The notes under the pieces: generated by a model
Database searches by the model: none
The model's input: only the letters and a program-made list of their open reading frames with translations
Told to the model about the DNA's origin: nothing
Assembly: GCA_019054805.1 (NCBI GenBank)
Contig: JAHQIY010000006.1
Span: 5,208,001 to 5,272,000 of the forward strand
Length of the DNA: 64,000 bases
Reading direction: 5' to 3'
Origin: Brachionus manjavacas
Lineage: Eukaryota; Rotifera; Eurotatoria; Ploima; Brachionidae
Program-made: the position numbers and the translations under genes
Shown: in pieces, positions 6,179 through 60,770 of the stretch
Numbering within the stretch: the first letter of the stretch is position 1
Layout of the letters: every line of letters begins with the position of its first letter

Positions 6179-9100
6179 ATGGCGGAAGATTTGGACTTGA
6201 CCGATTCAAGAATCGAGTTTATGGCAGTTTATCTGCTAAAAACTCTCAAATTAAAATCAGACAAATGGACAAAAATGTATGCTATAGAAGACAACAAAGT
6301 GTTAATTCAAGAATTTTTGGACAAAAACGAACAATCACTTCTTGTTTTTATCCTAAACTCATCGGGCACATTGGTTGTTCAATACAACTACCCAAACCAG
6401 CTCAAAAATAAAGCGTGCTATTTTGCCAAAAAAAATCCCAGAGATCCTGTTTCAAAAGATGCGAGTATTAAAGAATCGCTCATTTACGGAGACTTGTCCT
6501 ATTCACCTTTGGACCAACTATCAGTAATTTTAGATGAAGTAAACTTAATGTCATAATTAGAAAAATAAACTAAAGAAAATAATCTTTTAAATTATCTAGT
6601 TGTTGGTTCCAATTTTCAGCAATGTTCAGAACCAAACTGACTGGCCCAAGGTCATTTCAAGCGATTTGATCAGACACATAAATAATCTGAAAAATAAAAC
6701 CCATGTTATCTCTGGACAAATGAAAGGCAAGACACAGTTGCCCATACCAGCTGGCGCAGAAAAAGTCTCCGATGAGGACTTACAAATGGCAGAAAAGTGA
6801 GGATTTGAATATTTTTGTTAAAAAAAATTTTATTATTTTTATTAAATTAAGAGGAGAAGCAGTGGATCAAGCCCTTATTCATTCAATAGAATCAGTGGTA
6901 ATCGACTGGAGTCATCAAATTCAAGAAGTTTTAAAAAAAGATTCATCACAGCCATTGCTAGAAGGTCTAAATCCAGGACCATTGACTGAAATTGAGTTCT
7001 GGAAAGCCAAGACTGTTAATTTGGAGAATATTTTTAATCAACTAAGGGACCCTAAGACAAAAAAAATGGCTCAGTTGCTCGAAAAAACCCATAGCAGCTA
7101 TTTTCCAGCATTTAAGGATTTGTTCAAAGAGACTCTTTCGGCTTTGGAAGAGTCTAGTGACATTGATTGTCACCTAAAACCATTAGCTGGTCATTTTGAG
7201 TCACTCGAAACAACAGAGTTCGATGAATCGGCTTCATTGTTTGACCCTATGTTTCATTCAATTTGTCTTCTTTGGGCTCATTCGAAATATTATTGCAGAC
7301 CAGCCAGAATCATAGTTCTCCTACAAGAACTTAACAATGTTATTATCAAGAGAGCTAATGAACATTTGGAACCAATTGATTTGTTTAAAGGCGAACCAGA
7401 AGAGTCGATCCAAAAAATAAGAGCTACTTTCAACACTTTGGAGGCTTACAGAAATTCATACGAAACTCATAAGACTAAAATTAAAGAATATTTTAAAAAT
7501 GGAAATCCGCCACGTGAGTGGGAATTTACACCCAAGCTGGTCTTTGCTAGATGGGATAAATTTATGGAAAAAATGGAAATGATTAGACATTTGTTCAAAA
7601 CTGCCATTGATTTGCTTAGACTGGAAAAAGTAGAAATCGGTGGAGTTAAAGGAAAGGCATTAAGTGCCAAAGTGGTCAAAATATTTGAAGAATTCAAAGA
7701 TGAATTTGAGAAGTTTTCCAACAAAAAATATGACCCATTGGACCCTAAATGCGATGTAAATTGATTCAAATTATTTAAATTTTTTTTTTAAATTTAATTT
7801 TTCAAGGAATTTGACGCTGATTATAGAGAATTTAACAAATTTGTTCTGGACTTGGACCGCCGCTTGTCGGCAATTATTTCCCAAGGCTTTAACGATTGCA
7901 ATAGCTTGAATAGTATATTTAAGCTGATAATTATTCTTGGTAGTTTGTTGGAGAGACCTACAATCAAGAAAGACTTTGAACCACGTTTTGCTCAAATTTT
8001 GCAAATGCTCGAAAATGAGATCGATGATACGAAGAAGATTTATGATGTGCAAAAAAAATTAAAGGATACTAAGAATGAAATAGAAGTACACCGCAATTTG
8101 CCCGAAGTATCAGGTGCTATGAAATGGTGTCATGAATTGAGAGAACGAGTCACTAAGCCAATGGAACAATTTAAAAAGCTAATTGAGCATCCCATAACTG
8201 AGACAGATCAAATGGAAAGAGTAAACAAAAAATATCAAGAAATTCTTGATTTGTTGGATGCGTTTGCCAGCGAGGTGTACAAAGATTGGTGCTTGCATGT
8301 AGGAACTCTGTCAAATAATAACTTGGAGAAAAATTTGATAAATCGCGATGGCGAGTCTAAAAGCATCGACACTAATTTTGATTCTCAGGTAAAATTTTTT
8401 TGTTTAAAAATTTTCGAAATTAAAATTTAAGATAAAAAGAGATAGAAATTTTTTTAAATCTATAATATTTTTAATATGCATGATTTTTAATAGTAACGAT
8501 TTTTACGATCTCTTATTAAGTATGTAAGTAAAAATGAACGAAAACCTAAAAACAGCTTTAAACTGCTTCTACGAAATTCTGTTTTATCTAATAAATATTT
8601 TAGAATTTATTTAGAATTTTATGCATAACATTTTTTTATCAAGTATACAAGGAAGTGAATTGAAAATTAAAGATTTTTTTAAAATTTTTAATTAAAAATG
8701 CGAACTAAGTGACAAAAATCATTAGTCAAGATTATTGCATTTTTTTGTTGTTATTTTTGTTTTTCATTCTTATTCTTTTTGATATTTTAATCTAAGTAAA
8801 AAAGTGGCAAAAATTTTCAGTTACTGATAATTTGAATAGTCTCATCGTCGATTTATCTAAATTGATTCTTAATAAAGAAGAGATAATAAATAATTAATTC
8901 TAAATAACTCCTGTTTTGTGGGTGCCTATTAAAATTAAAAACTAATTAGAATATTTTAAATCTTAAAATAAAAAAGTGCTCTAGAAAAATGAATAAATTT
9001 TTTTTTTACTAAATATTAAATTTTAAAAGTGAAAAAAAATTTCTACAAAATAAATTGAATTTTTAAAATAATTTGATTGTTAATTTATTTATTAGCTAAT

Positions 9101-23646: not shown

Positions 23647-25215
23647 TCAAAAGCCATAACCACCATAATTATTATTGTTGTATGCAGGATAGGTTTGCGG
23701 AGGTTGAGTCTGAGGTGGATATGTTTGTGGTTGCATTGTTTGAACTGCTGGTTGAGTAAATTGATTTCCATAAGCACCGAATTGGTTTCCGTTGTTTCCA
23801 TTTGAATTCTGATCAACACCACACAATGCTGGATTCAGATTACGATCCATGTTTGCAACATCGGCAGCTGAACTTGACGAACCAAATATTTGTTTGTTGC
23901 ATTGGATTTTGCATGGCCATTCACATTGCTTGGTAGCATCGTTCCACCACAGATCGTAAGTACTTGAACCTTTGGCACACAAGAAATCTTTTCGAACACC
24001 TTTAACACATACATGGAAGACGTTACAATACTTTGAATTGGAAACAAATGAACCATCACTGACACCTTGGCAAGGATTTTCACTGTCTGGAATCCTAAAC
24101 AAATCATTTGAGTTGTCTTCAACAACTTGACCATTTCCACCATTTGATCCCTGGCCATAACTTCCTAAATTGTTGTTGTTGTTTCCAGCGTTTGATCCCT
24201 GACCATAGCCTCCATTTTGTTGGTTATTGTTACTGCTTGGTTTTGGACAAGAGTCTAAAATTCTTTGAGCTTCAGTAGTGCTTTCACTTACTGAGCTGCC
24301 ATCGAGCAAAATACCACCAGGACTTGTGCATTGTCTTCCAGTATCACACGGCCATTGACATTGGGCTTCTGGCTGAGCAACTGATTGAGATGTGCTGTGC
24401 AACTTCCACCAAAGTCTATCGCCTGATTGCATTTTAGCACACAAAAATTCAAATTTATTCTTATCAAAACATCTGTAGTAAACGTTGCACCATTTGCTAG
24501 GGTAAAAACCATCTGGTTTGCCATTGCAAGAAAATTGTTCATTATCTCTCACATATTGCTTCCATGGTTCAACTTGTTCTACTTGTCCACTTGGTTGAAA
24601 ATTATTGTTTCCAAAATTGTTTTGATTTCCGTATTGATTTAATGGCTGGGTAAAAAACACTGGCTGAGTTGTTTGCGGCATAAAGTTTGTTTGTTGATAG
24701 TTGTAGTTGTTATTGTTACTATTTCCGTAGCCATTATTGTTTGTTTGTTGTTGATTTCCGTGATTGTTGGTTTGAGTCAATGGAGTGAAATAGTTGCCCG
24801 ATGTACACCCCGACGGGTTTTTGCTGGCAAACTCGCATTTTTGAGTTGTTTCGTCATAGTAAAATCTCTCACCATTTTGAGCACAACCATAGGTTTTCTC
24901 TTGCTTGCCAAATACACAAGCATGATAAATGTCACAATATTGGTAATCTTTGTTTGGCCCAGTTGGTTTATTTGAACAATCAAAGCTTATTCCAGTTATG
25001 GTTTGTTCTTGTACTGTAGGCACAAATTGAGGCTGCTGGGGAACAACTGGCATTTGAGGCAGAGGATCTACAGCAGGTTGTGGTATGTTTCCATAAGCTC
25101 CTTGTCTAACTATTCTATTATTTTTCCACCACAAGTCTTGATGAGACTTTCCAGCCAAAGAAACAAATATTAAAGATAAGACTAAAATGTTCAATCTTTT
25201 ATTAAACACTATCAT
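23647..25215 (-). CDS. Secreted protein with three chitin-binding type-2 (peritrophin-A, CBM14) domains, copy 1
   Basis: Single-exon frame of 522 residues. It probably binds chitin in an extracellular matrix such as cuticle, lorica, gut lining or egg shell; which one cannot be told. Residues 1-22 form a signal peptide (hydrophobic core ILVLSLIFVSLAG). The three six-cysteine domains are C80-C137 (cysteines 80, 94, 100, 111, 127, 137), C230-C296 and C382-C439, with the usual YC-x-Y/F-x-x-C core in each (YCDIYHAC, WCNVYYRC, YCNVFHVC). Linkers are N/Q/G-rich, and between domains 2 and 3 lies a 16-residue repeat (SYGQGSNGGNNNNN type), one fewer than in copies 2 and 3. A DLWW motif recurs at 27-30, 267-270 (RLWW) and 421-424. 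A TATA-like box is about 50 bases upstream and AATAAA follows the stop. Differences from the other copies are few and mostly in linkers. Confidence 0.9.
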   Translation of the reverse strand: MIVFNKRLNILVLSLIFVSLAGKSHQDLWWKNNRIVRQGAYGNIPQPAVDPLPQMPVVPQQPQFVPTVQEQTITGISFDCSNKPTGPNKDYQYCDIYHACVFGKQEKTYGCAQNGERFYYDETTQKCEFASKNPSGCTSGNYFTPLTQTNNHGNQQQTNNNGYGNSNNNNYNYQQTNFMPQTTQPVFFTQPLNQYGNQNNFGNNNFQPSGQVEQVEPWKQYVRDNEQFSCNGKPDGFYPSKWCNVYYRCFDKNKFEFLCAKMQSGDRLWWKLHSTSQSVAQPEAQCQWPCDTGRQCTSPGGILLDGSSVSESTTEAQRILDSCPKPSSNNNQQNGGYGQGSNAGNNNNNLGSYGQGSNGGNGQVVEDNSNDLFRIPDSENPCQGVSDGSFVSNSKYCNVFHVCVKGVRKDFLCAKGSSTYDLWWNDATKQCEWPCKIQCNKQIFGSSSSAADVANMDRNLNPALCGVDQNSNGNNGNQFGAYGNQFTQPAVQTMQPQTYPPQTQPPQTYPAYNNNNYGGYGF

Positions 25216-31741: not shown

Positions 31742-33830
31742 TTTCAAAAAAGAGAAAAAAAATTAGAGAAATTAATTAGAGTCAAGACAAGTTTAGAGAA
31801 ATCATAAAATAGAGAAAGGAAAATTAGAGAATTTGTATAATAGAGAAAAAAAAATTATGGAAAAAAATATAGAGAAAAGCACAGACAATATTTTTAATAT
31901 AAATAAATAGCTTTTTTATTCATCTTGTTTAAATTCAACTAAAAATGAGCCAAATTAATTCTCCGCTTGTAAGTAGAATTGGATCTAAAAAAGATTATAA
32001 GCCTAGCAAAGAGAATTTAATAAAAAAAACAAGAACTAAAATGCAATCAATTAATGTAAATGGTTTTGGAATTTTAGTTGATCAATTGTGCTCAGGTCAA
32101 AGTATGGTGACGAGTAATAATGACGATGAAAATCCGGATACAGTTTTTGCTGATATTGATTTTTCATTTTATAATATTTGTGAAAGAATGATTGACTGTA
32201 TGCAAAATTTGAAGATTAATATTTTAGACGAACATGATTGGAGTCTAAATATTTCCCAAAAAAGTGGCTATAAACTTTATTCAAATGGTTTTTGTTATGT
32301 TGTAGATAAACCAAAGAAAGAACTGGTACAAGAAGCGTCAAAGATTTATTGGCGTTGTGAGTTTTACAATGAATGTGGTGGACGAGGCGTGTCTAGTGGA
32401 CTTAAACCACCTTTCAAGGAAACAAAAGTGCATAATCACATGCCAAAACCTGAGAGCAAAGAGTTTCTTGTAAGTAAACAAGAATTAAAAAAATGTGCAT
32501 TAATGTCAAATGATGCACCAAGAGCACTAATAAGAGAATTTCAACTCAGCCAAAGTGATAATTGTATTGGAAATTGGCCAAACAAAAATGCGATAAGGCA
32601 GCAGATAATTCGGACAAGAAATGTGAATGCAAAGGGTAACTCTAAGTGCTTAGAAGATGTTGATATTCCCGAAGATTTAAGATTGACTTATAAAAATTCT
32701 AAATTTTTTTATGGTGATTCTGGAAAGAATGACAAAAATAGAATAATATTTTTTACAACAGAGCAAAATATAAAACTTTTGAGCTCATATCATGACTGGT
32801 ACTGTGATGGTACGTTTGATATTTCACCAACTGTGTTTAAACAAGTTTATACTATTTATATAATCATTAGGGGCACTACTCTTCCAATGTTATACGCTTT
32901 TCTTCCGAATAAGAAGCAAATAACTTATAAAAAATTATTCAAGTTAGTAAGTGATTTGATTACAATCAACCAAAAATCTGTAAATTGTGACTTTGAATTA
33001 GCTGCTATAAATGCTTTGAGGTTCGTATTTAAATGTAAAATCTATGGTTGTTTTTTTCACCTATCACAGTCGACGTGCACCTATTCTGGCGACGTGTTCA
33101 AACAAACCATTCAAAGATTTGGTTTAACGAAGATTTTAGGCAAACTTTTCGTCAAGTTCAGTCACTTGCTTTTGTTCCGTGTGAGGATGTTGTAAAAGGC
33201 TTTGATTTAATTAAGAATAAAGCAGCTAAAAACTTTGTTTTTTTTTTTAAATTATGTCGAGAACAATTATATTGGAGTTTTTAGAAACAAAAAACGTATG
33301 TCACCCCGTTTTCCAATAGATATTTGGAATTTACACGAGAGAGTTAAAAAAGACTTGCCTAGAACCAATAATAATGTTGAGTCTTGGCATTCCCGTATAA
33401 AAAGCGTTGCAAGACATAATCTTACAGTTAATAAAGTATTTGAATTTTTCCGTTTAGAGCAAAGTAATATGGAATCAGCTTTGTTGTTATTATTTTCAGG
33501 TAGTCAATTAAAGTCAACAAGCAGTAAAGCACAAAAAAAAGAAGATAAAATAAAACGCCAAGTTAATGAATATAAAACAGAAAATTTAGAGTTTTTCCTT
33601 ACTGGATTTTCAATTTTATTGATGGAATATTAATTAATTAATCAGTTTATCAGACTTTTTCTATTTTTTTTTCAATTAAAAATTTTGTAATTTTTTTTCG
33701 GTAATTTTTTTTCTCTATTCATTTATTTTATCTCTAATAAAAATATTCTCTAATTAATTGACACATTTTTTTCTCTATAAATTTTTCTCTTATTTAGCTA
33801 TTCTCTAGAAATTTATTTCTCTATTTTGAT
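31742..33830 (+). mobile_element. FLYWCH-type MULE DNA transposon (unit 1)
   Basis: About 2.1 kb. Ends are inverted repeats built from iterated TAGAGAAA words; in unit 2 the outer tips are ATCAAAATAGAGAAA on the left and its complement on the right, while here the left tip has two changes. One transposase gene fills the middle. A target duplication is not clear. Confidence 0.75.
31945..33633 (+). pseudogene. FLYWCH-MULE transposase, frameshifted (unit 1)
   Basis: DDE-type transposase of the Mutator superfamily. The first open part is 416 codons. Residues about 107-175 form a FLYWCH-like zinc-binding domain (YSNGFCYVV, YWRCEFYNECGGRG, HNHMP). The MULE catalytic core has its first acidic residue in CDGTFDISPTVF and the second in CDFELAAINALRF, followed by the C-H pair in GCFFHLSQS. 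The frame then shifts twice (near 33066-33180 and at the poly-T of 33237-33250) before the C-terminal block PRTNNNVESWHSRIKS, which is typical of this family. Two frameshifts make it inactive as it stands. It is better preserved than the unit 2 copy, which shows how long each has decayed. Confidence 0.88.
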
Positions 33831-34430: not shown

Positions 34431-34792
34431 GGTTTTGTGAAGTTCAATACAGAAAAATAGAACAAAGTGTAAAAAAATGAATAACTTTTATTTTTTAAAG
34501 CTTAAAATTAGTTCTGTGAATACATCATAGTGCAACATTCAAAGTTGCATCAAATCTCAATCTCTGCTAATGATGCGCAAAATCTCTGCAAAATGCACTA
34601 AACTTCATTAGATTGATATTTAATTTCTGCTAAACCCTGCAAATATAGCAGACCTTGATATTTGATGCAACTTTGAATGAATGTTATGAAGTATCCACAT
34701 AACTAATTTTAAGCTTTTAAAAAAAAGGTTATTCAATTTTTTTTTATTTTTTTGTTCTTTTAATCATTTTTTTTCTGAATTTCACAAAACCA
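34431..34792. mobile_element. Foldback MITE with long arms (unit 1)
   Basis: Left arm starts GGTTTTGTGAAGTTCA and includes TTAAAGCTTAAAATTAGTT. The right arm is an imperfect inverted copy ending TGAATTTCACAAAACC. Direct repeat TGATTTGA flanks it (34423-34430 and 34793-34800), extendable to 9 bp with one mismatch. Tips and size resemble the foldback at 21503-21842. No coding capacity. Confidence 0.7.
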
Positions 34793-35823: not shown

Positions 35824-37440
35824 TCAAAAGCCATAACCACCATAATTATTATTGTTGTATGCAGGATAGGTTTGCGGAGGTTGAGTCTGAGGTGGATATG
35901 TTTGTGGTTGCATTGTTTGAACTGCTGGTTGAGTAAATTGATTTCCATAAGCACCGAATTGGTTTCCGTTGTTTCCATTTGAATTCTGATCAACACCACA
36001 CAATGCTGGATTCAGATTACGATCCATGTTTGCAACATCGGCAGCTGAACTTGACGAACCAAATATTTGTTTGTTGCATTGGATTTTGCATGGCCATTCA
36101 CATTGCTTGGTAGCATCGTTCCACCACAGATCGTAAGTACTTGAACCTTTGGCACACAAGAAATCTTTTCGAACACCTTTAACACATACATGGAAGACGT
36201 TACAATACTTTGAATTGGAAACAAATGAACCATCACTGACACCTTGGCAAGGATTTTCACTGTCTGGAATCCTAAACAAATCATTTGAGTTGTCTTCAAC
36301 AACTTGACCATTTCCACCATTTGATCCCTGGCCATAACTTCCAAAATTGTTGTTGTTATTTCCACCATTTGATCCCTGACCATAACTTCCAAAATTGTTG
36401 TTGTTGTTTCCAGCGTTTGATCCCTGACCATAGCCTCCATTTTGTTGGTTATTGTTAGTGCTTGGTTTTGGACAAGAGTCTAAAATTCTTTGAGCTTCAG
36501 TAGTGCTTTCACTTACTGAGCTGCCATCGAGCAAAATACCACCAGGACTTGTGCATTGTCTTCCAGTATCACACGGCCATTGACATTGGGCTTCTGGCTG
36601 AGCAACTGATTGAGATGTGCTGTGCAACTTCCACCAAAGTCTATCGCCTGATTGCATTTTAGCACACAAAAATTCAAATTTATTCTTATCAAAACATCTG
36701 TAGTAAACGTTGCACCATTTGCTAGGGTAAAAACCATCTGGTTTGCCATTGCAAGAAAATTGTTCATTATCTCTCACATATTGCTTCCATGGTTCAACTT
36801 GTTCTACTTGTCCACTTGGTTGAAAATTATTGTTTCCAAAATTGTTTTGATTTCCGTATTGATTTAATGGCTGGGTAAAAAACACTGGCTGAGTTGTTTG
36901 CGGCATAAAGTTTGTTTGTTGATAGTTGTAGTTGTTATTGTTACTATTTCCGTAGCCATTATTGTTTGTTTGTTGTTGATTTCCTTGATTGTTGGTTTGA
37001 GTCAATGGAGTGAAATAGTTGCCCGATGTACACCCTGACGGGTTTTTGCTGGCAAACTCGCATTTTTGAGTTGTTTCGTCATAGTAAAATCTCTCACCAT
37101 TTTGAGCACAACCATAGGTTTTCTCTTGCTTGCCAAATACACAAGCATGATAAATGTCACAATATTGGTAATCTTTGTTTGGCCCAGTTGGTTTATTTGA
37201 ACAATCAAAGCTTATTCCAGTTATGGTTTGTTCTTGTACTGTAGGCACAAATTGAGGCTGCTGGGGAACAACTGGCATTTGAGGCAGAGGATCTACAGCA
37301 GGTTGTGGTATGTTTCCATAAGCTCCTTGTCTAACTATTCTATTATTTTTCCACCACAAGTCTTGATGAGACTTTCCAGCCAAAGAAACAAATATTAAAG
37401 ATAAGACTAAAATGTTCAATCTTTTATTAAACACTATCAT
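35824..37440 (-). CDS. Secreted chitin-binding protein, three CBM14 domains, copy 2
   Basis: 538 residues in one exon. Same signal peptide and three chitin-binding type-2 domains as copy 1; the longer length comes from one more 16-residue repeat unit between domains 2 and 3 (two NNNNNFGSYGQGSNGG-type units). The other differences from copy 1 are single residues in linkers (for example H152Q, S328T). All domain cysteines are kept, so all three copies look functional. Promoter block and polyA signals are also conserved, so the copies are probably co-expressed. Confidence 0.9.
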   Translation of the reverse strand: MIVFNKRLNILVLSLIFVSLAGKSHQDLWWKNNRIVRQGAYGNIPQPAVDPLPQMPVVPQQPQFVPTVQEQTITGISFDCSNKPTGPNKDYQYCDIYHACVFGKQEKTYGCAQNGERFYYDETTQKCEFASKNPSGCTSGNYFTPLTQTNNQGNQQQTNNNGYGNSNNNNYNYQQTNFMPQTTQPVFFTQPLNQYGNQNNFGNNNFQPSGQVEQVEPWKQYVRDNEQFSCNGKPDGFYPSKWCNVYYRCFDKNKFEFLCAKMQSGDRLWWKLHSTSQSVAQPEAQCQWPCDTGRQCTSPGGILLDGSSVSESTTEAQRILDSCPKPSTNNNQQNGGYGQGSNAGNNNNNFGSYGQGSNGGNNNNNFGSYGQGSNGGNGQVVEDNSNDLFRIPDSENPCQGVSDGSFVSNSKYCNVFHVCVKGVRKDFLCAKGSSTYDLWWNDATKQCEWPCKIQCNKQIFGSSSSAADVANMDRNLNPALCGVDQNSNGNNGNQFGAYGNQFTQPAVQTMQPQTYPPQTQPPQTYPAYNNNNYGGYGF

Positions 37441-45450: not shown

Positions 45451-47524
45451 ATCAAAATAGAGAAAAAAAAATTAGAGAAATTAATTAGAGTCAAGACAAG
45501 TTTAGAGAAATCATAAAATAGAGAAAGGAAAATTAGAGAATTTGTATAATAGAGAAAAAAAAATTATGGAAAAAAATATAGAGAAAAGCACAGACAATAT
45601 TTTTAATATAAATAAATAGCTTTTTTATTCATCTTGTTTAAATTCAACTAAAAATGAGCCAAATTAATTCTCCGCTTGTAAGTAGAATTAGATCTAAAAA
45701 AGATTATAAGCCTAGCAAAGAGAATTTAATAAAAAAAAACAAGAACTAAAATGCAATAAATTAATGTAAATGGTTTTGGAATTTTAGTTGATCAATTGTG
45801 CTCAGGTCAAAGTATGGTGACGAGTAATAATGACGATGAAAATCCGGATACAGTTTTTGCTGATATTGATTTTTCATTTTATAATATTTGTGAAAGAATG
45901 ATTGACTGTATGCAAAATTTGAAGATTAATATTTTAGACGAACATGATTGGAGTCTAAATATTTCCCAAAAAAGTGGCTATAAACTTTATTCAAATGGTT
46001 TTTGTTATGTTGTAGATAAACCAAAGAAAGAACTGGTACAAGAAGCGTCAAAGATTTATTGGCGTTGTGAGTTTTACAATGAATGTGGTGGACGAGGCGT
46101 GTCTAGTGGACTTAAACCACCTTTCAAGGAAACAAAAGTGCATAATCACATGCCAAAACCTGAGAGCAAAGAGTTTCTTGTAAGTAAACAAGAATTAAAA
46201 AAATGTGCATTAATGTCAAATGATGCACCAAGAGCACTAATAAGAGAATTTCAACTCAGCCAAAGTGATAATTGTATTGGAAATTGGCCAAACAAAAATG
46301 CGATAAGGCAGCAGATAATTCGGACAAGAAATGTGAATGCAAAGGGTAACCCTAAGTGCTTAGAAGATGTTGATATTCCCGAAGATTTAAGATTGACTTA
46401 TAAAAATTCTAAATTTTTTTATGGTGATTCTGGAAAGAATGACAAAAATAGAATAATATTTTTTACAACAGAGCAAAATATAAAACTTTTGAGCTCATAT
46501 CATGACTGGTACTGTGATGGTACGTTTGATATTTCACCAACTGTGTTTAAACAAGTTTATACTATTCATATAATCATTAGGGGCACTACTCTTCCAATGT
46601 TATACGCTTTTCTTCCGAATAAGAAGCAAATAACTTATAAAAAATTATTCAAGTTAGTAAGTGATTTGATTACAATCAACCCAAAATCTGTAAATTGTGA
46701 CTTTGAATTAGCTGCTATAAATGCTTTGAGGTTAGTATTTAAATCTAAAATCTATGGTTGTTTTTTTCACCTAACCTAGTCGTTCTGGCGACGTGTTCAA
46801 ACAAACCATTTAAAGATTTGGTTTAACGAAGATTTTAGGCAAACTTTTCGTCAAGTTCAGTCACTTGCTTTTGTTCCGTGTGAGGATATTGTAAAAGGCT
46901 TTGATTTAATTAAGAATAAAGCAGCTAAAAACTTTGTTTTTTAAATTATGTCGAGAACAATTATATTGGAGTTTTTAGAAACAAAAAACGTATGTCACCC
47001 CGTTTTCCAATAGATATTTGGAATTTACACGAGAGAGTTAAAAAAGACTTGCCTAGAACCAATAATAATGTTTAGTCTTGGCATTCCCGTATAAAAAGCG
47101 ATGCAAGACATAATCTTACAGTTAATAAAGTAGTTGAATTTTTCCGTTTAGAGCAAAGTAATATGGAATCAGATTTGTTGTTATTATTTTCAGGTAGTCA
47201 ATTAAAGTCAACAAGCAGTAAAGCACAAAAAAAAGAAGATAAAATAAAGCGCCAAGTTAATGAATATAAAACAGAAAATTTAGAGTTGTTCCTTACTGGA
47301 TTTTCAATTTTATTGATGGAATATTAATTAATTAATCAGTTTATCAGACTTTTTCTATTTTTTTTTCAATTAAAAATTTTGTAATTTTTTTTCGGTAAAT
47401 TTTTTTCTCTATTCATTTATTTTATCTCTAATAAAAATATTCTCTAATTAATTGACACATTTTTTTCTCTATAAATTTTTCTCTTATTTAGCTATTCTCT
47501 AAAAATTTATTTCTCTATTTTGAT
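45451..47524 (+). mobile_element. FLYWCH-type MULE DNA transposon (unit 2)
   Basis: Same insertion as unit 1 with better-kept tips: ATCAAAATAGAGAAA on the left and its reverse complement ending at 47524. Subterminal regions repeat TAGAGAAA-like words in both orientations. Confidence 0.8.
45654..47326 (+). pseudogene. FLYWCH-MULE transposase, multiply broken (unit 2)
   Basis: Same transposase as in unit 1 but more decayed: an extra A and a TAA near 45757 disrupt the start, a stop follows FFHL at 46777-46779, the middle is shortened, and a TAG replaces the glutamate of NNNVESWH near 47073. The FLYWCH-like domain and both catalytic acidic motifs remain readable in the open 327-codon part from 45796. 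Confidence 0.85.
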
Positions 47525-48123: not shown

Positions 48124-48189
48124 GGTTTTGTGAAGTTCAATCAGAGTTGGTCAAAAGTCAAACTTTAAAGTCAGAATCGTCAAAAGTCA

Positions 48190-48382
48190 AAGTCAAAGTC
48201 TGACTTTGACTTGAGTTCAAAATTATTTCAAAGTCAAAGTCTGACTTTGACTTGAGTTCAAAATTATTTCAAAGTCAAAGTCTGACTTTGACTTGAGTTC
48301 AAAATTATGTCAAAGTCAAAGTCTGACTTTGACTTGAGTTCAAAATTATTTCAAAGTCAAAGACTTGAGTTCAAAATTTTTT
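48190..48382. repeat. Short tandem array, about 41-bp unit
   Basis: Between four and five copies of a unit with AAGTCAAAGTCTGACTTTGA, itself a near-perfect palindrome, followed by CTTGAGTTCAAAATTATTT. Confidence 0.85.
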
Positions 48383-48596
48383 TTCTTCTTTTTTTTTTTT
48401 TTTTAATTTTTAAATTTAATTTTTTTAATTAAAAAACTATTTTTTTTTAATTAAAAATATATTAAATTAACTTAGATTTTTTTTTTTTAATTTTTTGTTG
48501 GCAGCCCGTTTATTTTAGAAAAAATAAAAATAAAAATATTTGGTGGGACTTTTGAAAAAAAAAAAAGTCTTGACTTGAACTTTTAAACAACTCTGG

Positions 48597-50490
48597 TCCA
48601 GACTTGACTTCAAAAAAATAAAATTTAAAGTCAAAGTCCAGACTTGACTTCAAAAAAATAAAATTTAAAGTCAAAGTCCAGACTTGACTTCAAAAAAATA
48701 AAATTTAAAGTCAAAGTCCAGACTTGACTTCAAAAAAATAAAATTTAAAGTCAAAGTCCAGACTTGACTTCAAAAAAATAAAATTTAAAGTCAAAGTCCA
48801 GACTTGACTTCAAAAAAATAAAATTTAAAGTCAAAGTTCAGACTTGACTTCAAAATAATAAAATTTAAAGTCAAAGTCCAGACTTGACTTCAAAAAATAA
48901 AATTTAAAGTCAAAGTCCAGACTTGACTTCAAAAAATAAAATTTAAAGTCAAAGTCCAGACTTGACTTCAAAAAATAAAATTTAAAGTCAAAGTCCAGAC
49001 TTGACTTCAAAAAAATAAAATTTAAAGTCAAAGTTCGGACTTGCTTCAAAATGAACAAAAATTAAAGTCAAAGTTCAGACTTGCTTCAAAAAATAAAATT
49101 TAAAGTCAAAGTTCAGACTTGACTTCAAAAAAATAAAATTTAAAGTCAAAGTTCAGACTTGACTTCAAAAAATAAAATTTAAAGTCAAAGTTCAGACTTG
49201 CTTCAAAATGAATAAAATTTAAAGTCAAAGTTCAGACTTGACTTCAAAAAAATAAAATTTAAAGTCAAAGTTCAGACTTGACTTCAAAAAAATAAAATTT
49301 AAAGTCAAAGTTCAGACTTGACTTCAAAAAAATAAAATTTAAAGTCAAAGTTCAGACTTGACTTCAAAAAAATAAAATTTAAAGTCAAAGTCCAGACTTG
49401 ACTTCAAAAAAATAAAATTTAAAGTCAAAGTCCAGACTTGACTTCAAAAAAATAAAATTTAAAGTCAAAGTTCAGACTTGACTTCAAAAAAATAAAATTT
49501 AAAGTCAAAGTTCAGACTTGACTTCAAAAAAATAAAATTTAAAGTCAAAGTTCAGACTTGACTTCAAAAAATAAAATTTAAAGTCAAAGTTCAGACTTGA
49601 CTTCAAAAAATAAAATTTAAAGTCAAAGTTCAGACTTGACTTCAAAAAAATAAAATTTAAAGTCAAAGTTCAGACTTGCTTCAAAATGAAAAAAAATTAA
49701 AGTCAAAGTTCAGACTTGACTTCAAAAATATAAAATTTAAAGTCAAAGTTCAGACTTGACTTCAAAAAAATAAAATTTAAAGTCAAAGTTCAGACTTGAC
49801 TTCAAAAAAATAAAATTTAAAGTCAAAGTTCAGACTTGACTTCAAAAAAATAAAATTTAAAGTCAAAGTTCAGACTTGACTTCAAAAAAATAAAATTTAA
49901 AGTCAAAGTCCAGACTTGACTTCAAAAAAATAAAATTTAAAGTCAAAGTTCAGACTTGACTTCAAAAAAATAAAATTTAAAGTCAAAGTCCAGACTTGAC
50001 TTCAAAAAAATAAAATTTAAAGTCAAAGTCCAGACTTGACTTCAAAAAATAAAATTTAAAGTCAAAGTCCAGACTTGACTTCAAAAAATAAAATTTAAAG
50101 TCAAAGTTCAGACTTGACTTCAAAAAAATAAAATTTAAAGTCAAAGTTCAGACTTGACTTCAAAAAATAAAATTTAAAGTCAAAGTCCAGACTTGACTTC
50201 AAAAAATAAAATTTAAAGTCAAAGTTCAGACTTGACTTCAAAAAAATAAAATTTAAAGTCAAAGTCCAGACTTGACTTCAAAAAAATAAAATTTAAAGTC
50301 AAAGTTCAGACTTGACTTCAAAAAAATAAAATTTAAAGTCAAAGTTCAGACTTGACTTCAAAAAAATAAAATTTAAAGTCAAAGTTCAGACTTGACTTCA
50401 AAAAAATAAAATTTAAAGTCAAAGTTCAGACTTGACTTCAAAAAAATAAAATTTAAAGTCAAAGTCCAGACTTGACTTTGACTTCATGAC
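48597..50490. repeat. Minisatellite array, 39-41-bp unit, roughly 45-50 copies
   Basis: Head-to-tail units reading CAGACTTGACTTC, AAAAAAATAAAATTTAAAG, TCAAAGTC (or TCAAAGTT). Variants are C/T in the AGTCC/AGTTC step, 6 or 7 A in the A run, and a few units with CTTGCTTCAAAATGAA. The variants are interspersed and in runs, which suggests repeated local expansion. Each unit carries the inverted pair AAGTC...GACTT. Confidence 0.95.
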
Positions 50491-51020
50491 TTTGACTTTT
50501 GACCATCACTGAGTTCAATACAGAAAAATAGAACAAAGTGTAAAAAAATGAATAACTTTTATTTTTTAAAGCTTAAAATTAGTTCTGTGAATACATCATA
50601 GTGCAACATTCAAAGTTGCATCAAATCTCAATCTCTGCTAATGATGCGCAAAATCTCTGCAAAATGCACTACACTTCATTAGATTGATATTTAATTTCTG
50701 CTAAACCCTGCAAATATAGCAGACCTTGATATTTGATGCAACTTTGAATGTTGCACTATGATGTATCCACATAACTAATTTTAAGCTTTTAAAAAAAAGG
50801 TTATTCAATTTTTTTTTATTTTTTTGTTCTTTTAATCATTTTTTTTCTGAATTTCACAAAACCATGATTTGAAATATGACAAATTGATTAGGAAAGAAAG
50901 CGATTTAATACTTAATTAATTATTTTGTTAGAATTGAACCAACAAATGACAAAATTATTATTATGATCACATTAAAGGATGTTCATTTAGACCTTAGCTC
51001 ATGCATTCAGTAGTATTGGT

Positions 51021-51895: not shown

Positions 51896-53512
51896 TCAAA
51901 AGCCATAACCACCATAATTATTATTGTTGTATGCAGGATAGGTTTGCGGAGGTTGAGTCTGAGGTGGATATGTTTGTGGTTGCATTGTTTGAACTGCTGG
52001 TTGAGTAAATTGATTTCCATAAGCACCGAATTGGTTTCCGTTGTTTCCATTTGAATTCTGATCAACACCACACAATGCTGGATTCAGATTACGATCCATG
52101 TTTGCTACATCGGCAGCTGAACTTGAGGAGCCAAATATTTGTTTGTTGCATTGGATTTTGCATGGCCATTCACATTGCTTGGTAGCATCGTTCCACCACA
52201 GATCGTAAGTACTTGAACCTTTGGCACACAAGAAATCTTTTCGAACACCTTTAACACATACATGGAAGACGTTACAATACTTTGAATTGGAAACAAATGA
52301 ACCATCACTGACACCTTGGCAAGGATTTTCACTGTCTGGAATCCTAAACAAATCATTTGAGTTGTCTTCAACAACTTGACCATTTCCACCATTTGATCCC
52401 TGGCCATAACTTCCAAAATTGTTGTTGTTGTTTCCACCGTTTGATCCCTGGCCATAACTTCCTAAATTGTTGTTGTTGTTTCCACCATTTGATCCCTGAC
52501 CATAACTTCCATTTTGTTGGTTATTGTTACTGCTTGGTTTTGGACAAGAGTCTAAAATTCTTTGAGCTTCAGTAGTGCTTTCACTTACTGAGCTGCCATC
52601 GAGCAAAATACCACCAGGACTTGTGCATTGTCTTCCAGTATCACACGGCCATTGACATTGGGCTTCTGGCTGAGCAACTGATTGAGATGTGCTGTGCAAC
52701 TTCCACCAAAGTCTATCGCCTGATTGCATTTTAGCACACAAAAATTCAAATTTATTCTTATCAAAACATCTGTAGTAAACGTTGCACCATTTGCTAGGGT
52801 AAAAACCATCTGGTTTGCCATTGCAAGAAAATTGTTCATTATCTCTCACATATTGCTTCCATGGTTCAACTTGTTCTACTTGTCCACTTGGTTGAAAATT
52901 ATTGTTTCCAAAATTGTTTTGATTTCCGTATTGATTTAATGGCTGGGTAAAAAACACTGGCTGAGTTGTTTGCGGCATAAAGTTTGTTTGTTGATAGTTG
53001 TAGTTGTTATTGTTACTATTTCCGTAGCCATTATTGTTTGTTTGTTGTTGATTTCCTTGATTGTTGGTTTGAGTCAATGGAGTGAAATAGTTGCCCGATG
53101 TACACCCTGACGGGTTTTTGCTGGCAAACTCGCATTTTTGAGTTGTTTCGTCATAGTAAAATCTCTCACCATTTTGAGCACAACCATAGGTTTTCTCTTG
53201 CTTGCCAAATACACAAGCATGATAAATGTCACAATATTGGTAATCTTTGTTTGGCCCAGTTGGTTTATTTGAACAATCAAAGCTTATTCCAGTTATGGTT
53301 TGTTCTTGTACTGTAGGCACAAATTGAGGCTGCTGGGGAACAACTGGCATTTGAGGCAGAGGATCTACAGCAGGTTGTGGTATGTTTCCATAAGCTCCTT
53401 GTCTAACTATTCTATTATTTTTCCACCACAAGTCTTGATGAGACTTTCCAGCCAAAGAAACAAATATTAAAGATAAGACTAAAATGTTCAATCTTTTATT
53501 AAACACTATCAT
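51896..53512 (-). CDS. Secreted chitin-binding protein, three CBM14 domains, copy 3
   Basis: 538 residues, one exon, same signal peptide and three six-cysteine chitin-binding domains. The linker repeat has the same number of units as copy 2 but a different mix of variants (GSYGQGSNGGNNNNNLG first, the F variant second). It also differs by silent changes near 52106 and 52130, so it is a separate genomic copy rather than a misplaced duplicate of copy 2. Conserved promoter block and polyA signals suggest it is active. Confidence 0.9.
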   Translation of the reverse strand: MIVFNKRLNILVLSLIFVSLAGKSHQDLWWKNNRIVRQGAYGNIPQPAVDPLPQMPVVPQQPQFVPTVQEQTITGISFDCSNKPTGPNKDYQYCDIYHACVFGKQEKTYGCAQNGERFYYDETTQKCEFASKNPSGCTSGNYFTPLTQTNNQGNQQQTNNNGYGNSNNNNYNYQQTNFMPQTTQPVFFTQPLNQYGNQNNFGNNNFQPSGQVEQVEPWKQYVRDNEQFSCNGKPDGFYPSKWCNVYYRCFDKNKFEFLCAKMQSGDRLWWKLHSTSQSVAQPEAQCQWPCDTGRQCTSPGGILLDGSSVSESTTEAQRILDSCPKPSSNNNQQNGSYGQGSNGGNNNNNLGSYGQGSNGGNNNNNFGSYGQGSNGGNGQVVEDNSNDLFRIPDSENPCQGVSDGSFVSNSKYCNVFHVCVKGVRKDFLCAKGSSTYDLWWNDATKQCEWPCKIQCNKQIFGSSSSAADVANMDRNLNPALCGVDQNSNGNNGNQFGAYGNQFTQPAVQTMQPQTYPPQTQPPQTYPAYNNNNYGGYGF

Positions 53513-59833: not shown

Positions 59834-60326
59834 AAATTTTTTCTAAAAATATTTCGAAATTAGATGTTTAGTTTGTTTATATTATTTAATATAAGTAAAC
59901 AATTTTATTAACTTTTACTTTTAGAATGATTATTCAAAAAAAACTCATAAAAATTAAGTTTATAAAACTTTTTTTTTCATTCTTAATAAATTTAATGAAA
60001 CTTAAAGATGTCTTCCGTTTTTTAAGAAATAAATCAGAGTTGTTTAAAAGTCTTTAAAAAAAAGTCCAAGTCCCGACTTTTTTTTTTTTTTTTTCTTCAA
60101 AGTCCAAGTCAGGACTTTTAAAATTTAAAAAAAAAAAAAATCGAAATCCTGATCCAAACAGTCTGAATTAATCGGGCGGCAAAAAAACCGGCCAACCTTT
60201 AGGAAGGCGGTATTTCAGCTTGGCAGTCAAAATTTTGGAAGTAAAAGTTATTAAAATTGTTTACTTATATTAAATAATATAAACAAACTAAACATCTAAT
60301 TTCGAAATATTTTTAGAAAAAAATTT
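59834..60326. repeat. Long inverted repeat, about 87-bp arms
   Basis: Arms 59834-59920 and 60239-60326 are reverse complements with one base difference and one length difference in a T/A run. The roughly 318-bp centre contains the hAT-like head at 60035. Arms this well matched among decayed repeats suggest a recent foldback element or a recent inverted duplication. Confidence 0.9.
60035..60180 (+). mobile_element. hAT-like MITE head
   Basis: Begins CAGAGTTGTTTAAAAGTC, the same tip as the internal end at 48596 (complemented), followed by AAGTCCAAGTC and GACTTT words. A right end was not found. Confidence 0.5.
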
Positions 60327-60454: not shown

Positions 60455-60770
60455 TATTACTACTACTTTATTTTTTATACTTTTTTTATTAAAATAAAAC
60501 AAACAATTCCTAACGGCCAAAAACTACCAACAACAATATTACTACTACTACTCCTACTTTACTCCTAATCTATACTAGTACTACTTAATAACTATTATTT
60601 CTACTACTACTACTAAATAACTATTATTACTACTATTCCTACTACTACTACTTTATTCCTACTACTACATTACTATTATTACTGCTACTCCTACTACTAC
60701 TACTTTAATAATGCTACTACTACTACATTACTATTATTACTACTACTCCTACATTCCTATTAATACCAAT
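60455..60770. repeat. CTA/TAC trinucleotide-rich region
   Basis: Imperfect runs of ACT/CTA/TAC with TCC and TTA interruptions over about 300 bases. Simple-sequence DNA without coding potential. Confidence 0.85.

Follow-up and report, generated by a model that had tools for sequence, protein, structure and literature searches.

A probable internally deleted hAT transposon with a 47-unit subterminal tandem array in the rotifer Brachionus manjavacas

In Xenopus, MITEs that carry tandem repeats have been described for the Kolobok elements Xmix and Xstir and for the Tc1/mariner element miDNA4, according to the portions of the reports available to us (PMC9659126, PMC12628747, PMC6004289). For the Drosophila foldback-like element Tetris, the part of the report at hand states that no autonomous copy was found (PMC4079207), and for Galileo, the accessible text describes how further sites in the tandem repeats were identified from a transposase site mapped by footprinting (PMC3688188). 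The subterminal repeats of hAT transposons have been described as stronger transposase contacts, and Tgf2 is given 17 and 18 of them at its two ends, in the sections of the paper that are open to us (PMC4890040). The main satellites of Brachionus, as far as the available excerpts describe them, have monomers of 154 and 143 bp, unlike the 40-41 bp units reported here. Minisatellite beginnings inside transposons are usually argued from end products. Here we describe an array-bearing element in a 64,000-nucleotide stretch of the Brachionus manjavacas genome (GenBank assembly GCA_019054805.1, contig JAHQIY010000006.1, positions 5,208,001 to 5,272,000), which we refer to as the window. We conclude that this window copy is very probably non-autonomous and derived by internal deletion from a 7.2-7.3-kb hAT element found in the same genome, and that its right array has most likely grown. 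The surrounding gene content is animal-like and includes a dynein heavy chain and a chitin-binding protein, and an impure array based on the trinucleotides ACT/TAC, about 240 bp long and with a longer-period substructure, lies at 60523-60766.

Read directly from the sequence, the element spans window positions 48142-50511 and is 2,370 bp long. Its parts, together with the matching empty site, are as follows.

48134-48141, no strand: left copy of the 8-bp target site duplication (TSD) AGTTCAAT, an exact pair with the right copy
48142-48159, plus strand: left terminal inverted repeat (TIR), 18 bp, CAGAGTTGGTCAAAAGTC, from the sequence and the genome-wide tip pattern
48187-48362, plus strand: left subterminal array, 4.3 copies of a 41-bp unit (TRF), with the palindrome AAAGTCAAAGTC-TGACTTTGACTT in every unit
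48358-48378, plus strand: internal deletion junction, where the copy lacks about 6.7 kb present in the long element (alignments)
48358-48368, plus strand: the word CAAAGACTTGA, common to the window copy and a copy at another locus, L017
48378-48598, plus strand: nested remnant of a second repeat family, 221 bp (genome comparisons)
48578-48595, minus strand: tip-like end CAGAGTTGTTTAAAAGTT of the second family (tip matching)
48599-50478, plus strand: right subterminal array, 47.3 copies of a 40-bp unit with 96% matches (TRF)
50494-50511, minus strand: right TIR, 18 bp, CAGTGATGGTCAAAAGTC (sequence and tip matching)
50512-50519, no strand: right copy of the TSD AGTTCAAT (sequence)
34441-34448, no strand: empty target site in the adjacent unit of the duplication (a single exact AGTTCAAT copy; flank alignments)

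The inverted tips lie exactly where the first-pass annotation of this DNA had placed them, with 16 of their 18 positions identical, and the 8-bp repeat that it had reported on both sides is likewise exact. Its estimate of roughly 45-50 copies of a 40-bp unit fits the 47.3 copies found by TRF, but in taking the interior to be this array alone it had missed the 41-bp array and the 221-bp remnant. When up to three mismatches were allowed, the window contained four tip-like matches against 0.16 expected from shuffled sequence: the two tips of the element, one match within it and one at 60035. Adjoining the insertion site, an inverted repeat at 50524-50833, with 117-nt arms that are 82% complementary and 76 nt apart, looks like another palindromic MITE-type repeat.

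An exact search of the 114-Mb genome with the tip pattern returned 221 matches (108 on the plus and 113 on the minus strand) and the reversed-pattern control returned none, so that other genomic copies with these tips, for which the first-pass annotation had proposed to look, do exist. Sequence was fetched around tip or array matches at 81 loci, with tip positions drawn from 100 listed matches of the 221 and most of the listed tips on contigs C5 and C6 lying outside the sample, and pairing was run on 80 of these loci and on the window copy. A pair of tips with flanking repeats was found at 46 of the 81, and 35 had no such pair, some of these stretches carrying one end only. The 46 elements were obtained from 51 pair rows by dropping five second pairs with weak tips in L018-L022 (eight mismatches in four of them, six in one). 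Their TSDs are exact in 30 cases and contain one mismatch in 16. In a test on 12 elements with two exact tips on contigs C1-C4, chosen blind to the TSD and all from L029-L088, seven had an exact 8-bp repeat, four had one mismatch and one had two. None of 132 mismatched left/right pairings came within two mismatches (all had at least three), and a chance origin of the TSDs is therefore rejected. Five C1-C4 loci with two exact tips that stood outside this test (L010, L013, L015, L016 and L025) all have exact TSDs. Further, among elements chosen for having an exact repeat, all 29 have one of exactly 8 bp; this set includes four copies of one duplicated insertion and holds 26 distinct TSDs. Those four copies (L018-L021) lie on contig C9 at 2192419-2242003, about 16.4 kb apart; each is a same-tip element of 346-386 bp with the TSD AAGTGAAC, one being about one unit shorter, and they apparently represent one insertion multiplied through segmental duplication. 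Across the family, element length ranges from 91 to 7,281 bp, and many same-tip copies, at 91-793 bp, are MITE-sized.

More relevant to the identity of the element, the family includes gene-bearing members. L009 (7,206 bp, TSD AATATATA) and L010 (7,281 bp, TSD GATATTGG) have the same tips as the window copy, flanked in both by a perfect 8-bp TSD, and both contain the hAT dimerisation domain (Pfam PF05699) with scores above the Pfam cut-off (E = 7.9e-14 in L009 and 2.7e-15 in L010). The L010 stretch with this domain also matches the solved Hermes transposase at 7.3e-7. For zf-BED, the two copies score 15.9 and 15.1 bits against a cut-off of 20.6, and a Pfam scan of their middle stretches, with exons unassembled, calls no DDE RNase-H-like catalytic domain; the coding stretches of the long copies are spread over several frames. 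Two further copies of about 7.3 kb, L011 and L012, are altered at the right tip and gave no pair of TIRs with a TSD, and L013 (4,787 bp, TSD CTAATGAT) has undergone a partial deletion. The family thus has the features of hAT transposons, namely 8-bp TSDs, 18-bp TIRs and a C-terminal dimerisation domain in same-tip elements, and the window element is a non-autonomous transposon of hAT type. The hAT identity that had been proposed for it from tips and TSD is borne out by these transposase-bearing relatives through both PF05699 and the Hermes match. A match to the transposase C-terminus (E ≤ 0.01) is kept in 32 of the 46 paired elements, counting the larger copies L009, L010 and L079 and the four copies of one duplicated insertion, with the weakest matches at E = 1e-4 to 5e-3. 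This C-terminal remnant is absent from the other 14, the window copy and 13 others. Because 32 of 46 keep the stretch, many short copies derive from a gene-bearing form.

An element with arrays at both ends might also be read as a foldback element, with long inverted arms built of repeats. Consistent with this, the left array matches the right one in inverted orientation at 64-66% over about 165 bp, and TSDs of 8-10 bp are given for Tetris, a foldback element, in the portion of the report available (PMC4079207). However, the gene-bearing relatives are hAT elements, the direct match between the arrays (67% over 174 bp) is at least as good, and either array can be aligned with its own reverse complement. 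Direct and inverted matches are about equal because the units are palindromic, and the inverted pairing therefore probably reflects palindromic units and not true inverted arms. We regard a foldback origin as highly improbable.

With the hAT reading preferred, the structure of the window copy points to an internal deletion. It aligns to positions 1-222 (95.5%) and 6952-7262 (94.6%) of L010, skipping the coding part, and the roughly 6.7 kb of the long form that it lacks includes the gene. Both ends are common to a gene-bearing element and the interior is gone, as in Ds-like internal deletions. A full autonomous element is rejected, given that the alignment skips the coding region and no match to the transposase C-terminus is present. 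MITEs are non-coding, occur in many copies and stay under about 800 bp, a limit that the window copy exceeds. Judged by its sequence, it is an internally deleted hAT derivative rather than a typical MITE. The suggestion of a MITE whose subterminal repeats were amplified was therefore right about the amplification but not about the class, and a MITE is not required for the origin of the arrays because gene-bearing long copies already carry them, with three to nine right units.

In support of a single deletion event, a second copy with the same junction was observed at another locus. L017 is 739 bp long, has the TSD CTTAGAGA and differs from the window copy at 4 of 235 aligned bases; among all loci compared, CAAAGACTTGA occurs only in L017 and the window copy (L001 in our numbering), and by inspection the junctions of L014, L015 and L016 differ from it. 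The piece of a second repeat family next to the junction was also traced. The end of this family with its flank has 12 exact matches in the genome, 7 within copies of the hAT element and 5 elsewhere, and in L026 (contig C20), which does not have the piece, the transposase gene directly adjoins the 40-bp array. Since L026 displays the state without the piece, the second family probably inserted into this region of the array in an ancestral copy and lost part of its length afterwards. This family has a related tip, CAGAGTTGTTTAAAAGTY, and besides the remnant at 48378-48598 it is represented by a tip-like copy at 60035-60052 and by relatives dispersed throughout the genome.

The number of right units varies widely between copies. 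One walking procedure applied to ten copies gave 47 in the window copy, 11 in L014, 9 in L009 and L013, 8 in L026, 7 in L015, 5 in L016 and L017 and 3 in L010 and L011; the short copies L018-L022 and L027, which have one to three right-unit matches per strand, were left out of this count, and fuzzy counting differs slightly, with 46 for the window copy and 12 for L014. Left arrays contain 3 to 12 units in the eight copies counted, and the 41-bp array is present in L009 and L010. Unit variants are shared across the family, variant A occurring in six and variant B in seven of the eight copies compared, and the variant GACTTGCTTC was found four times in the window copy and in no other of the eleven copies checked. 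The 40-bp array looks inherited from the long form and not captured. Neighbouring units of the right array are more alike than in shuffled order (p = 0.008), as local growth predicts; the best longer lag, 16 units, is too weak for a claim of block duplication (p = 0.043 over 23 lags). Because L017 has the same junction but only five units, the expansion most likely took place after the lineage had become non-autonomous, with one deletion followed by growth on the branch of the window copy. It is possible, alternatively, that L017 shrank from an ancestor with a longer array.

Given this pattern, growth after deletion suggests the following history. The long form has 18-bp tips and a short palindromic subterminal tandem array at each end, with 41-bp units on the left and 40-bp units on the right. 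A deletion took the transposase gene and spared both ends, leaving a copy that transposase from long copies could move in trans. Insertion of this copy into one of two tandem duplicates, about 1% diverged, produced the 8-bp duplication. In the lineage of the window copy, the right array would have expanded to 47 units from a starting size of roughly 5-10, with slippage, unequal exchange or gap repair following excision as the most likely routes.

The neighbouring duplicated unit provides the corresponding empty target. The uninterrupted site that had been noted in unit 1 at 34442-34449 is present, although it lies one position earlier, at 34441-34448. Up to this site, the left flank of the element aligns with the other duplicated unit over 7,010 bp (97.9%, 71 mismatches, 25 gap openings) and the right flank over 3,671 bp (99.0%, 26 mismatches, 7 gap openings). 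In the kilobase nearest the site on the two sides, there are 14 mismatches in 1,007 positions and 9 in 1,000. The element was inserted into one duplicate of a pair about 1% apart, and the insertion is therefore younger than the duplication, barring gene conversion or excision. Transposons of the hAT type are known to excise, and the site could in principle have been left by excision and not be a never-occupied one. Such excision usually leaves footprints, however, whereas 34441-34448 holds one exact copy of the TSD, with both flanks continuous and no footprint, which makes an earlier occupation very unlikely. The tandem duplicated units also contain similar ORFs at 23647-25215, 35824-37440 and 51896-53512, in which a 48-bp coding repeat is present internally in 2.0, 2.7 and 2.7 copies, respectively. 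Chitin-binding peritrophin-A domains were found in the first, the only one of the three scanned. Another duplicated pair of ORFs lies at 31945-33195 and 45796-46779, and in the former, the only one of the pair scanned, a FLYWCH finger was recognised, along with a match to a MULE-type transposase that falls just below the cut-off.

Tandem arrays and tandem duplicates of 98-99% identity are classic places for assembly errors, so that the array length or the empty site might be an artefact. Against this, the same tips are found at independent loci, each time with a TSD but with differing TSD sequences, the deletion junction was found again at one other locus, the array units are heterogeneous and include private variants, the duplicated units differ by 97 mismatches across about 10.7 kb of flank, and contigs reach up to 12 Mb. 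We consider an assembly artefact most improbable.

We also searched for the right-array unit outside the element. Its exact core occurs 95 times in the genome at 16 loci, 41 times in the window copy and 54 times at 15 others. At 14 of the 16 loci the core lies in an element with both tips and an exact TSD; the remaining two are a right-end fragment (L089) and the gene-bearing copy L026, which has no recognisable right tip. No free satellite was found, in that none of the 16 exact-core loci lies outside the element family; the exact core misses diverged units, and loci such as C2 at 5248082 and C28 were left out. At L028 (contig C29), which has diverged units, tips are present at one end only. 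The proposal that the element can carry a satellite seed to new places thus found no counterpart among the exact-core loci, all 16 of which are element copies or fragments. The same loci bear on whether the array goes back to a satellite already in the genome, which a hAT element took up or into which it inserted. Capture has been proposed for the miDNA4 MITE of Xenopus, in the text available from that work, and at 1.9 kb the array is large relative to the rest of the window copy. Yet of the 95 core occurrences 41 are here, all 16 loci are whole or truncated copies of the element, the unit is already present in the long copies and the left and right arrays resemble each other (67% over 174 bp). 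Capture is disfavoured by the lack of any exact-core locus outside the family, and we hold it to be extremely unlikely.

Both left and right units are palindromes made of the same words as the tips, a composition that may bear on their function. As DNA, the left unit forms a hairpin of -8.4 kcal/mol, better than shuffles (z = -2.96); this advantage is smaller for the right units (z = -1.8 and -2.3) and absent from the 47 outermost bases (z = -0.8). The words AAGTCAAA/TTTGACTT are concentrated in the terminal regions of the long copies, with 18 of 24 occurrences in L009 and 14 of 20 in L010, and each interior has 6 against about 1 expected. Substitutions in the left units spare the palindrome (4/1200, compared with 40/768 in the spacer); in the right units such sparing is not clear (17/2461 against 18/1712). 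No p-value is attached to these counts because the units share ancestry and are not independent. By analogy with other hAT elements, we infer that the units are putative transposase-binding subterminal repeats. We tentatively hypothesize, as an idea more doubtful than probable, that array expansion may be a strategy of non-autonomous copies, in which 47 putative right-end binding units would out-compete the gene-bearing copies or soak up their transposase and would at the same time start a minisatellite. If the units do bind transposase, the birth of a satellite would be tied to competition among transposon copies.

Compared with described systems, the kind of element is known. It shares with Hermes, Tol2/Tgf2 and Ac/Ds the 8-bp TSD, short TIRs, repeats in both subterminal regions and, through its long relatives, the hAT dimerisation domain, but their subterminal words are haphazardly scattered, whereas here they form regular palindromic tandem units of 40-41 bp, 47 of them in one array. 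A search of open-access titles and the beginnings of abstracts, outside which most subscription papers lie, found no hAT element with an amplified 40-bp subterminal array. Tetris and Galileo resemble the window element in having tandem repeats in their terminal regions, in the portions of the two reports available (PMC4079207, PMC3688188). Galileo belongs to the P superfamily, however, and Tetris, as its authors suggest in the accessible text, to Mutator, whereas the window element is a hAT (PMC4079207). Tetris repeats also make longer satellite-like arrays, according to the same excerpts (PMC4079207), and none were found for the exact core of the window element. Like Xmix/Xstir and miDNA4, as the available parts of those reports portray them, the window copy holds a tandem array inside a non-autonomous DNA transposon; in miDNA4 the copy number of the array is also variable. 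Unlike them, on the same partial sources, it is a hAT, a gene-bearing long form and a same-junction sister with a short array exist in one genome, and no free satellite with the exact core accompanies it. The first-pass annotation had considered the full combination of TIR, TSD, empty site and satellite body rarely this clear; it is indeed clear, yet both MITEs and foldback elements are already well known to carry tandem repeats, as these sources attest. What we did not find described is the hAT superfamily for such an element, gene-bearing relatives with the same arrays, and a same-junction pair with 5 and 47 units. One genome here holds gene-bearing relatives (3-9 units), a same-junction sister (5), an expanded copy (47) and an empty target, and with all four states together, array growth after gene loss becomes a testable event at a known insertion.
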